DNA of 64,000 bases from Terriglobales bacterium (GTDB lineage: Bacteria > Acidobacteriota > Terriglobia > Terriglobales > Acidobacteriaceae), in assembly GCA_025936825.1 (NCBI GenBank), contig JAICSO010000001.1, positions 310,001 to 374,000 of the forward strand, given 5' to 3'. Below are positions 12,859 through 16,768 of the stretch, piece after piece. The position numbers and the translations under genes are program-made. Under the pieces are notes generated by a model. It saw nothing but the letters and a program-made list of their open reading frames with translations, was not told the DNA's origin and did not search any database. Each line of letters opens with the position of its first letter. Positions within the stretch are counted from its first letter, which is position 1.

Positions 12859-14110
12859 CTAAACTGGTGCCAGCCCTCTCATGCGCCTGACTTCATTCAC
12901 CGTCAACACGCCCGTCCGAATCAGGATTTGCTGGATTTGCGCTTCTTCCATTGGGTTCGCGGCGGCGTCGACGTCCGTGAAAACGAATTCGAGATCGTGC
13001 CAGCCAAGCTTTTTCCCGATGGCGTCGCGCGTCAGGTATTCGGCAAACAGCCGCGCCGTGGGCACGATGGCCTGGCGAAACGCCTGGTCACTCATTTCGG
13101 CAGCGGTCGAGCGGTTCACATCGCGCTCCAGTCCGAGTGACTGTGGAGGCAGATCGAATGCGTCGGCAATGATTCGGAGTAAGAACTCCTGCCACTGCAG
13201 TCGAAGATCGGCGTCCGTTCCATTGCCGAAGCGCAGCACTTCCGCGCTTGTTTTCAACCGAAAGAATCGGCACGCGACCCGTGCCTTCAATTTCATCCTG
13301 CCACCATCGGATCAGTCGCTCGTGCTGCTCGGGCGTAGCATTCTGCAGCCAGAGCGCATACTCCACCACCGAGTTCGACGCCAGTCGTCCTGCATATCGA
13401 TGCGCACCCAGGAAAGCATTGATCGCTTCGAACGCAACTTCCAGCCGCCCCAGCCCGAATGGTGTATGTGTTCGCGGATTCAGTCTCATATAAATGAGCT
13501 CGTCATCCGCGAGCAGGATGTTTGCATCCGGCCCGACTCTGCCGGTCACCTGTTCGTAGCGGACCGAACTTGGTAGGCCATCCCAATCGGCTCGCATTCG
13601 GATAGTCGCCCCGTCGACGGGGAATAGCGATAGGGGATGATTCGCATCTCCCATTGCTTCAACCTCCAGCGCGCCATAACCGCCGACGATCAGGTCTTCC
13701 AGCACCTGCTCGGCCATCGAACGGAAGGAATCATCCGGATTGGGAGAATCGAAGCTGCGCGTGAGAATCGCAATCCGCGCGAGCGCATTCGGCAGCTCTT
13801 GCGTCCCAGCTTTCGCCTGGACTCGCCACCGCATACCGGCGATGCGGTCTTTGATCGTATTGATCGCGCGCCGCGCAACCGGCGTCTCCGAAAAGCGCCG
13901 TAGGTTCATGGGCGTAGGCTTCGGCATCGGCTGCGGCCGGGGCCCGTAGGTGTTGAGAATCGACGGGAGCGGCACGGTGCGGCGCTTGCCGTTTGCCGCG
14001 GCTTCACTTGCAGCTGAAGCCCACAGACCCGAGCGCACCGCCAGCCTGTTCACGAAGGACACTCCCGCAATCCGGCGCATTGCGCCGCGCAACGTACTTT
14101 TAATGTTCAT
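12859..14110 (-). CDS. Phage portal protein, interrupted by a +1 frameshift
   Basis: The portal gene is split into two frames. The first frame (from ATG 14110) carries MNIKSTLRGAMRRIAGVSFV, the conserved LRRFSETPVARRAINTIKDR block and PFGLGRLEVAFEAINAFLGA, and stays sensible up to about GTGRVPILSVENK (near 13250). Beyond that it turns into an Arg-rich tail. The second frame (to 12859) carries the expected continuation: AEVLRFGNGTDADLRLQWQE, IADAFDLPPQSLGLERDVNR, then the C-terminus. Reading one extra base near AACAAGCGCGG joins them into about 416 residues, normal for this portal family. It could be a real loss of function or a one-base sequencing error. Portal forms the DNA entry ring of the capsid. 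Confidence 0.85.
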
Positions 14111-14202
14111 GGGATTGAAACGAGCTTCTAGCTGTTAGCTACTAGCTCTTAGCTTTCGATTGATCACGAAATTGTGGTTCTTTATCCATATCTCTAAGCC
14201 TG
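14111..14202. repeat. TAGCTNT heptamers and start of a TCATCCTGAG repeat
   Basis: Heptamer units AGCTTCT, AGCTGTT, AGCTACT, AGCTCTT occur at about 14129-14156 directly upstream of the portal start. A TCATCCTGAG-type repeat follows (see 14200-14231). No gene is present. Confidence 0.55.
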
Positions 14203-14231
14203 TCATCCTGAGCGCAGCGAAGGACCTATGC
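14200..14231. repeat. TCATCCTGAG palindromic repeat, copy at the 3' end of the GIY-YIG gene
   Basis: TGTCATCCTGAGCGCAGCG, then AAGGACCTATG. It overlaps the stop codon and last codons of the nuclease gene. Confidence 0.85.
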
Positions 14232-14556
14232 AATTCTCCGGCTGCCACTGATACCGCTCGTAACAACCATCACTCAGATCGTGCCAAGCCGGATTTCGCG
14301 ACACGATCAAAGCAATTTTCTTGGTTCGAAGCCAGCCCTTGATTTCTTTCTCCCGTCCAATCGCTCGAGGCACATCTTCGTAGCGCTCATAGTAGACCAG
14401 GCGATCAATCTTGTACTTCGAGGTGAACGCACCGCCTTCGCCGCGCTTGTGCTGTGCTACGCGCCGCATCAGGCTGTGGGTCACGCCCGTGTACAGCGTC
14501 TTTGAGCGATTGCTCATGATGTAGACGAAATACGATCTCTTCAGGATCAAATACAT
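14203..14556 (-). CDS. GIY-YIG nuclease, UPF0213-like, ending in a repeat
   Basis: A single-domain GIY-YIG protein of about 117 residues. YFVYIMSNRSKTLYTGVTH is the GIY-YIG core (VYI and LYTG), followed by LMRRVAQHKRGEGGAFTSKY, the catalytic Arg region, then VYYERYEDVPRAIGREKEIK with the metal-binding Glu, and GWLRTKKIALI. Family members are small endonuclease-like proteins of uncertain job. The ATG at 14574 lies inside a TCATCCTGAG repeat, so the ATG at 14556 is preferred. The last residues (IGPSLRSG) are encoded by another copy of the same repeat. The gene is therefore bracketed by the repeat and probably was inserted as a unit between the portal and the DUF3037 gene. Confidence 0.85.
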   Translation of the reverse strand: MYLILKRSYFVYIMSNRSKTLYTGVTHSLMRRVAQHKRGEGGAFTSKYKIDRLVYYERYEDVPRAIGREKEIKGWLRTKKIALIVSRNPAWHDLSDGCYERYQWQPENCIGPSLRSG

Positions 14557-14570
14557 ACTATTTACTTCTG

Positions 14571-14666
14571 GCATCCTGAGGGCCTTCAGGCCCGAAGGAC
14601 CTATGTATTTGCCTTGAATCTGCGAAAGCGCAAATGCATAGGTCCTTCGCTTCGCTCAGGATGACA
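14571..14666. repeat. TCATCCTGAG palindromic repeat, inverted pair at the 5' side of the GIY-YIG gene
   Basis: Two copies face each other: GCATCCTGAGGGCCTTCAGG and on (14571-14607), and its inverted relative GCATAGGTCCTTCGCTTCGC, then TCAGGATGACAGG (14635-14666). The first has a different inner hairpin (GGGCCT/AGGCCC) from the others, a compensated change that keeps the stem. Confidence 0.85.
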
Positions 14667-14676
14667 GGGTTAAAAA

Positions 14677-15492
14677 TTACAGCTTCAGTTCCGCCCTAAT
14701 CCCCTGCGCGATCCCCGGCATCTCCGCTGCGGGCACGACCACGATCCCGCTCTCCTGCATCATCTCCAACGCGAACTTGACTTCATCTCGATCGCGATCG
14801 AGGTCGTCATCAACAACTGCCGTCAACCACGCTTTCAAGCCGCGCTTGGCCTGTACTCCAGCGGCGATCTGCGGAAACTCGAGTGCCAGCACTCTTGCAC
14901 GATCCGTTCCGTGCCCCAGCGAAACCGCATGCAAGAACTTCCAGTCGTGCGCCGGCGCATAAGCAAAGTCGAACTTCAGCGAATCGCCCAACTTCATGTA
15001 CTCACCTATGGGCACATTCCTCTGCATCAACTCCAGCACACCCGCCTTTTCAAGCTCATCCTGCATTACTCTCAAAATCCGCTGCCGCCCGGTGAGCGGT
15101 CGCGGTTCGGAAATTGTTGGTGTCTCCAGGTACATCGCGCTCAGGCGCTGCAATTCGAGAGCAGGAGATAAGTACGTCTGGCAACCCTGTAAGGCCGTGA
15201 CTTGCACGCTGTTTGACCATGAATCGTTCATCCGCTTCCGCAACTCGGCACGTTGCGTGGAATCCTGCAGGTCGCGCACAAGATCGCGCTCAATCGCCTG
15301 CAGTTCTTCGACGTCCACCAAAGGATCGAAGCAATGCAGCCGTCGCCAGTTTCGGGTGAAACGTACGTCGGCAAAGCCAGTCTTGTCATCTTCCGGAGCA
15401 AGCGCCACCACCCCCAGGTTGATGGACTCACCCTTGGTGATGTCCCCTGCATAGCGCAGCAGGAAAAATTCGAGATGTTCAAAGTCAGCCAT
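14677..15492 (-). CDS. DUF3037-family protein, partner of HipA-like kinase
   Basis: A 271-residue cytoplasmic protein. The opening (FEHLEFFLLRYAGDITKGES, then INLGVVAL) and the early FTRNWRRLHCF block match DUF3037. This family of unknown function is often encoded beside HipA-like kinases, as it is here, though a four-helix-bundle gene now lies between them. The chosen ATG at 15492 lies inside a run of TCAGCCA heptamers. Each heptamer contains an ATG in a shifted frame, and only this one opens the DUF3037 frame directly, so the native leader has evidently been replaced by repeat sequence. Confidence 0.8.
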   Translation of the reverse strand: MADFEHLEFFLLRYAGDITKGESINLGVVALAPEDDKTGFADVRFTRNWRRLHCFDPLVDVEELQAIERDLVRDLQDSTQRAELRKRMNDSWSNSVQVTALQGCQTYLSPALELQRLSAMYLETPTISEPRPLTGRQRILRVMQDELEKAGVLELMQRNVPIGEYMKLGDSLKFDFAYAPAHDWKFLHAVSLGHGTDRARVLALEFPQIAAGVQAKRGLKAWLTAVVDDDLDRDRDEVKFALEMMQESGIVVVPAAEMPGIAQGIRAELKL

Positions 15493-15531
15493 CAGCCATC
15501 AGCCATCAGCCGTCAGCCATCAGCCATCAGG
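15484..15531. repeat. TCAGCCA heptamer array, left arm
   Basis: Six or more tandem heptamers (TCAGCCA with one TCAGCCG variant). The array overlaps the start codon of the DUF3037 gene and lies just beyond the 3' end of the four-helix-bundle gene. Its inverted partner is at 15951-15982. Confidence 0.9.
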
Positions 15532-15538
15532 AAAACCT

Positions 15539-15913
15539 TCAACCTGCGGTTCCCGTTCGGCTGACGCTCAGATATTGAATAAATCCCGTCAACATCCGTT
15601 TGACTTCAACAACCGACGTAGCCAGTTCGTCGTAGCCCTTCTGGTCCAGATAGCGGAGATCGCGTGCAAGTAGGAGTTCATACTCAACTTCGCTCGCGGA
15701 ACCTAGTGCGATTTGAAGATAACGTGCGAAATCGGGACGGGAGTTCTTGCCCGCGCCTTCCGAAATATTTGCGGAAATTGAGACTGAGGCTCGACGCAAT
15801 TGCGCTGTCAATCCGTACAACTCTACTCGTGGAAAGCAGGCGGTTCCCTTGTATACAGAAAGGGTCAGTTCATGCGCCTTCTGCCAAACCTTCAATTCCC
15901 GAAAGTCTCGCAT
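15539..15913 (-). CDS. Four-helix-bundle (S23 / intervening-sequence-type) protein
   Basis: A 124-residue protein with the family pattern: FRELKVWQKAHELTLSVYK at the start, then LYGLTAQLRRASVSISANIS and EGAGKNS, then FARYLQIALGSASEVEYELL and LARDLRYLD. The family is named for proteins found in 23S rRNA intervening sequences; relatives act as accessory proteins in diversity-generating retroelements, but no reverse transcriptase or variable repeat is seen here. Its function is therefore unknown. It is bracketed by inverted heptamer arrays (15484-15531 and 15951-15982) and splits the DUF3037/HipA pair, which suggests insertion as a repeat-flanked unit. Confidence 0.85.
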   Translation of the reverse strand: MRDFRELKVWQKAHELTLSVYKGTACFPRVELYGLTAQLRRASVSISANISEGAGKNSRPDFARYLQIALGSASEVEYELLLARDLRYLDQKGYDELATSVVEVKRMLTGFIQYLSVSRTGTAG

Positions 15914-15950
15914 TATGCTCTCAGCTTTCAGCCCTCCGTCACCGGGTTTC

Positions 15951-15982
15951 CCTGATGGCTGACGGCTGATGGCTGATGGCTA
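15951..15982. repeat. TGGCTGA heptamer array, right arm
   Basis: Four heptamers (CTGATGG, CTGACGG, CTGATGG, CTGATGG), the inverted counterpart of the array at 15484-15531. A few related units (TCTCAGCTTTCAGCCC) lie at 15919-15935. The array runs into the stop codon region of the HipA-like gene. Confidence 0.85.
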
Positions 15983-16768
15983 GTTTTCCATCCACTTCGG
16001 AAACGGCCGCCTCACGGAAATGCGGAAACAAGCAATGAGTTCGCGTACTCGGGTGCGTCGCTCAATGAGTGCTCGGCTCAACTCTTCCAGCGCGCCCCAA
16101 TCGCTTCCGTACCACTCCGGCGGAATTTCTCCCGCAATTTCCCAGATCTCGTCCGGGTCGATGTTCTCGATTCTCGAAAGCCATGGCTCGAACGACTCCC
16201 AGCCTTTCACCCACTCGTAGGCTTCATTCCTTGCGAATACCCCGCGCAGCGGATAATCCGGGAAGGTCCACTCGCCGGCGTTGAAGCAGTAGCCCTGATC
16301 GATGAATGTGGCCGTGTATTTCCGCTCGCGCCCTTTGCGCCAGAATGCCGCCTGGCGACCGTTGGCGTTTCCGGTCCATTTGTCGAGCGCCAGCATGCCG
16401 GCGAACGTTTCAATGTTTCGAAGTCGGTCAAACAACTCCATCGGCAACCAGTCGAGCACGCGCCCTTCAATCGGATTCACTACGTATCGCGATCCGAAGT
16501 GGAGCCCCGGCTCGCACTGGATCGTATTACCCGCGAGTTGAATGTTCAGCTCCGGCGAGTGCTGGACTAGCCACGGGTTGACTTCGACCACTTCCGTCAC
16601 CGGCACCGGCAACCCGACACGTTCCGCCAGCCGCGTCGCTAACAACTCATTTGCCAGCACCCGCACATGCTGCGGGTTGTTGCGAAACTTTACGACGTAG
16701 AAGTTCTCGTCGGAGCAGCGCATCAAGTGACTCTGCGCCCCGCCTCGCATCCTGCGCACGTGTTGGAC
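15980..16768 (-). CDS. HipA-family kinase-like protein, short N-terminus
   Basis: A protein of about 262 residues. VRRMRGGAQSHLMRCSDEN is the glycine-rich phosphate loop seen in HipA-like kinases, YVVKFRNNPQH carries the ATP-binding Lys, LALDKWTGNANGRQAAFW holds the catalytic Asp/Asn segment, and ATFIDQGYCFNAGEWTF the metal-binding DxG-like element. The family is related to the HipA toxin kinase; most stand-alone members pair with DUF3037 and have unproven targets. The frame has no ATG before 16759, and the glycine loop begins at that residue, so the GTG at 16768 is preferred. Only repeat sequence and an in-frame stop lie further upstream, so the natural N-terminus may have been trimmed by a repeat insertion. 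Confidence 0.75.
   Translation of the reverse strand, partial: VQHVRRMRGGAQSHLMRCSDENFYVVKFRNNPQHVRVLANELLATRLAERVGLPVPVTEVVEVNPWLVQHSPELNIQLAGNTIQCEPGLHFGSRYVVNPIEGRVLDWLPMELFDRLRNIETFAGMLALDKWTGNANGRQAAFWRKGRERKYTATFIDQGYCFNAGEWTFPDYPLRGVFARNEAYEWVKGWESFEPWLSRIENIDPDEIWEIAGEIPPEWYGSDWGALEELSRALIERRTRVRELIACFRISVRRPFPKWMEN

Follow-up and report, generated by a model that had tools for sequence, protein, structure and literature searches.

A GIY-YIG nuclease gene between inverted TGTC-tagged repeats: a candidate REPtron-like mobile unit

Introduction

Why does a small nuclease gene stand between inverted copies of a tagged palindromic repeat, with its own last codons written in that repeat, and could its product be the enzyme that spreads the repeat? 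The question is raised by a locus in a stretch of 64,000 nucleotides (hereafter the window) from a Terriglobales bacterium (assembly GCA_025936825.1, contig JAICSO010000001.1, positions 310,001 to 374,000), whose genome comprises 6.54 Mb in 141 contigs. The original prediction, made from the letters of this stretch, held that copies of one palindrome flank the gene and code for its tail, that the repeat should be enriched around such genes, and that the nuclease might move or maintain the repeat much as RAYT transposases do for REP sequences.

The known precedent is the REPtron, in which TnpAREP/RAYT, a HuH enzyme of IS200/IS605-like type, accompanies GTAG-tagged REPs and REPINs, as described in the cited parts of two sources (PMC6006769, PMC3733652). 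The CGTC REP superfamily, defined by Di Nocera et al. (2013), is one of two large superfamilies of bacterial short palindromic repeats; according to the sections cited here, its tag variants are TGTC and CCTC, HH (tag-outward) dimers predominate, and its members include Neisseria dRS3 (equal to CGTC-1) and the Rickettsia palindromic elements, or RPEs (PMC3733652). In those sections the superfamily is said to "apparently lack a dedicated transposase", and no associated transposase gene is reported (PMC3733652). As far as our searches show, within the literature searched, a REP-bracketed nuclease gene is a known kind of object, while the enzyme class found here and the answer that it suggests are new.

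Results

The whole unit occupies window positions 14201 to 14666, limits given by the inverted match and by the boundaries seen in relatives. It consists of a GIY-YIG nuclease gene (PF01541; 14203 to 14574, minus strand; longest frame 123 aa) bounded by inverted tagged repeats. On the 3′ side of the gene, the outer repeat (TGTCATCCTGAGCGCAGCGAAGGACCTATGCAATT; 14201 to 14235, plus strand) supplies the stop codon and the last residues, and its inverted partner lies at the 5′ end (14632 to 14666, minus strand); the TGTCAT tags of both point outward, and 38 of 41 bases are identical between them. A third, divergent copy, with a longer internal hairpin and the degenerate tag TGGC, is also found at the 5′ end (14570 to 14606, plus strand). 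The three copies thus stand where they had been placed from the sequence, to within 1–2 bases. The real start of the nuclease may be Met7, at about 14556. Folded as single-stranded DNA, the two right-hand copies form a strong 96-nt inverted pair resembling a REPIN or HH dimer (14571 to 14666; −31.7 kcal/mol, z −7.1), while the two outer repeats folded singly do no better than shuffled sequences (z 0.54 and 0.05).

The final codons of the nuclease fall inside the 14201–14235 copy and its TGA stop inside the tag of that copy (..CGC TCA GGA TGA CA), so the repeat does code for the C-terminal residues. Repeat-coded tails were also said to occur in other genomes, and they do: of the cross-phylum relatives, 13 of 78 have their stop inside such a tag, as do 2 of 20 closer ones. 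As to the surroundings, a phage portal-like gene (PF04860; window 13088 to 14110) directly adjoins the unit, which may therefore lie in or beside a prophage remnant, and a short-unit array (TAGCTGTTAGCTACTAGCTCTTAGCT) is found just outside the left repeat, at 14122 to 14158.

The domain assignment of the protein is clear (PF01541, 46.7 bits against a cut-off of 22.6, E 4e-12), and five residues, Y18, Y28, R38, E75 and N94, are invariant among 15 aligned sequences. We presume these residues to be catalytic, taking their roles from UvrC and I-TevI. Ratios of dN/dS are about 0.05–0.24 in four pairs, two of which give rough values because dS exceeds 1.5 there, and they indicate that the gene is under purifying selection. 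In an AlphaFold2 model (mean pLDDT 83) the best fold match is to UPF0213 (1zg2, E 7e-5), followed by Slx1 chains (E 0.01–0.12, probability 0.98–1.00). The substrate of Slx1 is branched DNA, according to the titles of the structure entries, so a hairpin or cruciform substrate would suit the nuclease. The protein had been called UPF0213-type: the kinship holds, in that 1zg2 is the closest solved structure, but the formal assignment does not, in that no NCBIfam model matches the window protein. A role in anti-phage defence was considered and rejected on the absence of any PADLOC match.

To quantify the bracketing, we compared the two 300-bp flanks of each gene and scored their best ungapped inverted match, with a threshold of 14; nuclease genes were delimited by the limits of the protein match rather than of the ORF, and mechanically called ORFs of at least 80 aa served as controls. 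Protein matches were found in 32 of 61 related genomes, the home genome counted. We took 20 regions, each no longer than 20 kb, whose contigs left enough room; the choice was made once first scores had been seen. In them 18 of 20 nuclease genes reach the threshold, compared with 0 of 282 other ORFs in the same regions; among short control ORFs there the count is 0 of 112. The unselected set comprises 46 loci, drawn from 52 matches (E≤1e-14) outside the home genome after one at a contig end (L186) and five others were left out: 36 reach 14, 10 fall below, and 29 carry an outward tag on both sides. An initial scoring of the best match per genome, with 400-bp flanks, had given 22 of 30 at 14 or above by our own count, in which two loci (L022, L030) were mis-cut at contig ends.

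Different genomes carry different repeat sequences (TGTCATCCCGAGC.., TGTCATTCCGAAC.., TGTCATCCTGAGC..), while the left and right copies agree within a locus. The pairing is thus between a gene family and a type of tagged repeat, with no single fixed sequence; of the notion that one palindrome flanks the gene, the bracketing by tagged repeats stands and the constancy of the palindrome does not. At a few loci (for example L060) the highest-scoring inverted repeat does not look like a tagged one. Co-occurrence of the exact core and the gene across the 61 genomes is suggestive of the pairing; we do not rely on it, because it is confounded by relatedness and by the variety of repeats, and some genomes carry exact cores without a gene match (14 in G017, 11 in G036, 5 in G020).

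Within the home genome the repeat is sparse. We counted 7 exact copies of its 18-bp core across the 6.54 Mb, or 10 when up to one mismatch is allowed, and none of a reversed control pattern. Two of the 7 exact copies flank the nuclease gene, a placement with a random probability of the order of 1e-7 by our own arithmetic; replication in other genomes weighs more than this figure, because the gene was chosen for its repeats. Two decayed copies of the nuclease gene, with their tagged repeats retained, are also present. A genome search with a single perfect inverted-pair pattern gave no matches, because real pairs are imperfect. The abundance of TCATCCTGAG was discarded as an argument: 5 occurrences in the 64-kb window with one mismatch allowed, compared with 3.8 expected, are unremarkable.

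The association extends well beyond the Acidobacteriota. A scan of genome contigs for this subfamily, which has the motif IxREK[QE][IL]KxW, provided 576 relatives, many of the closest being acidobacterial records; we took the best 80 and scored 76, four (L067, L108, L116, L136) being dropped at contig ends. Among these best-ranking relatives 45 of 76 reach 14 and 31 fall below, compared with 19 of 686 control ORFs, or 6 of 314 when the controls are short; two of the 19 (L074, L119) are tagged repeats around other genes. Outward [TC]GTCAT[TC] tags occur on each side, no more than 250 bp away, at 40 of 76 relatives vs 9 of 711 controls, while both tags point inward at 12 of 76 vs 14 of 711. The outward pair is present in 11 of 21 Acidobacteriota and 29 of 55 others, the latter including records titled Verrucomicrobia, Planctomycetes, Patescibacteria, Gemmatimonadetes, Bacteroidetes, Alphaproteobacteria, Myxococcales, Clostridiales and others; no tag pair was found in the Chloroflexi-type (0 of 4) or Ignavibacteria (0 of 3) records.

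Plasmid-collection records give the same picture. A relative occurs in 40 of them, and 11 of the 12 inspected have tagged palindromes on both sides, their flanks being read by eye. The tag is CGTC in Azospirillum lipoferum, Neisseria gonorrhoeae, Aeromonas caviae, Novosphingobium, Sphingobium, Shinella and Rhizobium CIAT894, CCTC in two Sinorhizobium records, and TGTC in Planktothrix and Spirosoma; no bracketing repeats were seen in the flanks read for the Rhizobium tumorigenes gene. When 12 repeats were folded singly, those from Neisseria, Azospirillum, Bacteroidetes and Sphingobium formed clean hairpins (z −2.6 to −3.9), as did one long copy from the home genome (z −4.1); the remaining 7, both outer window repeats included, were not clearly above shuffled sequences. 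The repeats are therefore enriched around such genes as predicted, and both the association of gene and repeat and its geometry are strongly supported.

A second gene in the window has a comparable setting. A PF05635 gene (23S rRNA IVP / four-helix bundle; 15539 to 15913, minus strand) lies between inverted arrays of ∼7-bp units (CAGCCATCAGCCATCAGCC; 15486 to 15983). With this locus counted, 19 of 26 scorable PF05635 loci in 21 genomes reach 14, 4 of 30 loci having been left out as short, and most have short-unit arrays on both sides. It is apparently a second gene-repeat pair, with another kind of repeat.

Does the unit move? The most direct evidence comes from one genome (G004), in which it occupies up to seven separate places. 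Two of these copies share 77% identity across a 392-bp alignment that runs from ATGTCATCCC on the left to GGATGA on the right, and their flanks are unrelated. Among the eight pairs aligned over at least 300 bp, this pair alone has both edges at tags; two others (L057/L187 and L066/L173) have one edge at a tag, and the remaining ones stop at other points or have surroundings in common. Presence at fixed sites is scattered as well. The A. lipoferum gene lies between sufB and sufC, a site where it is absent from A. ramasamyi, A. oryzae and A. sp. B510 (94.7–95.5% identical), and sister plasmids have sites without the gene. Upstream of carB, the gene is present in 5 of 29 genomes, each time with adjacent tag-type repeats, and absent from 24 (30 loci were taken from 56 genomes with a match, and carB was unreadable in one). 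In one relative (G014; L032 900–1391) a tagged repeat is inserted in frame in a variable loop of carB and is absent from 14 aligned relatives. At the Azospirillum and Sphingobium sites, where the sequence between the genes is too diverged, we saw no target-site duplication and no empty counterpart that matches a gene-bearing unit to the base. Comparison of these genomes gives good support to the view that the unit moves.

Two further observations concern the sufB-sufC gap. In Sphingomonas parapaucimobilis (L167 1813–2223) it holds a DUF559 gene, and in Shinella PSBB067 a GIY-YIG match falls in it by coordinates.

How, then, would it move? The reading we favour, and consider probable, is that the unit is a REPtron-like mobile pair of gene and repeat whose enzyme is a GIY-YIG nuclease rather than a HuH/Y1 transposase and would nick the tagged hairpin. 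A different route would be that of a free-standing homing-type endonuclease, which cuts alleles or repeat sites that lack the gene and is copied in by repair through repeat homology, the repeats themselves having spread by other means. GIY-YIG domains are frequent in homing enzymes, and TIGR01453 (group I intron endonuclease) gives weak matches, far below the cut-off, in three relatives, though none in the window protein. The exchange of gene and empty repeat that homing would produce may be visible in Sphingobium: in strain TomMM7A the unit is flanked by fnrL and a response regulator, and at the same spot TomTYG64 has a solitary palindrome, CGTCACCCCGGG-TCAAG-CCCGGGGTGACG, with a near-identical one in TomTYG74 and neither unit nor palindrome in TomTYG72 and TomTYG65. 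However, the TomTYG64 palindrome is equally the product expected of gene loss between two ACCCCGGG direct repeats, so that the exchange can be read in either direction. Moreover, the sites of the gene are diverse, and the 24 of 29 carB loci that lack it also lack an outward tag pair. We therefore regard homing as unlikely.

Less likely again is that the nuclease gene is a passenger, either incidental cargo of repeats that a RAYT or host recombination mobilises, or a gene that happens to sit where repeats gather. REPs do accumulate between genes, and the two control ORFs noted above also stand between tagged repeats; but one gene subfamily is found between repeats in many phyla, and neighbouring ORFs, short ones included (0 of 112 and 6 of 314), rarely are. 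The RAYT-type Y1 transposases of the home genome (eight matches at seven loci) provide a direct comparison. Scored with 500-bp flanks, against 300 in the main tests, 7 of the 8 matches (6 of 7 loci) reach 14, but the repeats are of other kinds, and an outward TGTCAT pair is found around 0 of 8. Thus our scoring recovers the known REPtron geometry, and in this respect the proposed analogy with RAYTs is a good one, while the RAYTs of this genome are not tied to TGTCAT repeats. One of the eight Y1_Tnp matches (L254 flanks) has, within its repeats, a single related but untagged core (GCCTGCCCTGAGC...GTCGAAGGG), a point in favour of the passenger reading; with this exception Y1 genes carry other repeats, and we do not place a RAYT first as mobiliser. 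Nor is bracketing a property of GIY-YIG genes at large: in the home genome UvrC and a 347-aa GIY-YIG protein score 10 and 9, below the threshold, and lack the tag as well as the repeat.

Finally, a host-maintenance nuclease that processes or removes repeat hairpins in the manner of SbcCD or Slx1, and adjoins them for regulation without spreading them, is very improbable: the Slx1-like predicted fold and the purifying selection agree with it, but the tag-to-tag edges of one pair, the up to seven places in G004 and the scattered presence at fixed sites look mobile.

Discussion

Our comparisons make the nuclease the most likely agent of spread, and the original suggestion that it moves or maintains the repeat a plausible one. 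In the REPtron-like reading, the tagged hairpin would be exposed when the region becomes single-stranded, as on the lagging strand, or is extruded as a cruciform. The nuclease would recognise the hairpin and nick at or next to the tag, and the freed end would be repaired or copied, so that a repeat, a repeat pair or the whole unit reaches a new site; solitary repeats and repeat dimers would then be non-autonomous offspring of the unit. We infer that the nuclease cuts the repeat hairpin and that this cutting causes the spread. GIY-YIG enzymes are hydrolytic, so that strand joining would need host functions.

To our knowledge, and in the literature searched, the GIY-YIG class is not known to transpose anything in bacteria. 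Among the titles and abstracts listed from the open-licence literature, preprints aside, we found none that links GIY-YIG or UPF0213 genes with REPs, and such a report may exist in print elsewhere. A gene found between CGTC-type repeats in many phyla is a specific candidate for the missing mobilising enzyme of these repeats. A broader proposal, which we advance tentatively and with slightly less than even confidence, is that this nuclease is the dedicated mobiliser of CGTC/TGTC-tagged REPs across much of bacteria, Neisseria dRS3 and the Rickettsia palindromic elements included; it would be a transposition-like system resting on that enzyme class, and it could explain how dRS3 arrays and in-frame protein insertions of the RPE type arise.

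Comparison with known systems places the unit near, but not within, several of them. It resembles an insertion sequence or MITE in having terminal inverted repeats around a gene (38 of 41 bases) and in the existence of gene-less inverted pairs (in G034 the 45 copies listed include 7 such pairs spaced 44–50 bp); it differs in its lack of a known transposase domain, its size of ∼470 bp, and the absence of a visible target-site duplication in flanks that are too diverged. UPF0213 proteins (1zg2, BH0048; 1ywl, EF2693) and Slx1 share the GIY-YIG fold and are the closest solved structures, but we found no repeat association described for them.

The likeness to REPtrons is threefold: a small nuclease gene lies between inverted tagged REP-type repeats, as in the window unit, repeat copies and inverted pairs occur elsewhere in the genome, and the variety of repeat changes from genome to genome. 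The differences are in the enzyme, which is GIY-YIG with PF01541 as the sole domain found and HuH/Y1 absent, and in the tag, TGTC/CGTC instead of GTAG.

On the side of the repeat, the nearest relative is the CGTC superfamily, whose members are described, in the part of the source cited here, as having an 8–9 bp stem that opens with paired AT, a loop of 4–5 bases and a tail near CCA (PMC3733652). Both outer window copies carry TGTC, and the inner copy the degenerate TGGC; the tag-outward (HH) layout is seen in the 14571–14666 pair and in the whole unit. The gene-side repeats of Neisseria, Azospirillum and Sphingobium combine the CGTC tag with an 8-bp stem and a 4–5-base loop, and those of Bacteroidetes share the stem and loop length. 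In contrast, the stem of the window copies is short and interrupted (TCCT/AGGA around GC-GAA-GC), or they fold as other weak hairpins, and their tail is CTATGCA. With a TGTC tag and HH layout but no 8–9-bp stem, we call the window repeat CGTC/TGTC-type, outside the published four families. The superfamily also has an intragenic side: RPEs are described in the cited parts of two sources as in-frame palindromic insertions in Rickettsia proteins (PMC10969869, PMC3733652), and the in-frame carB copy of G014 is an RPE-like insertion outside Rickettsia.
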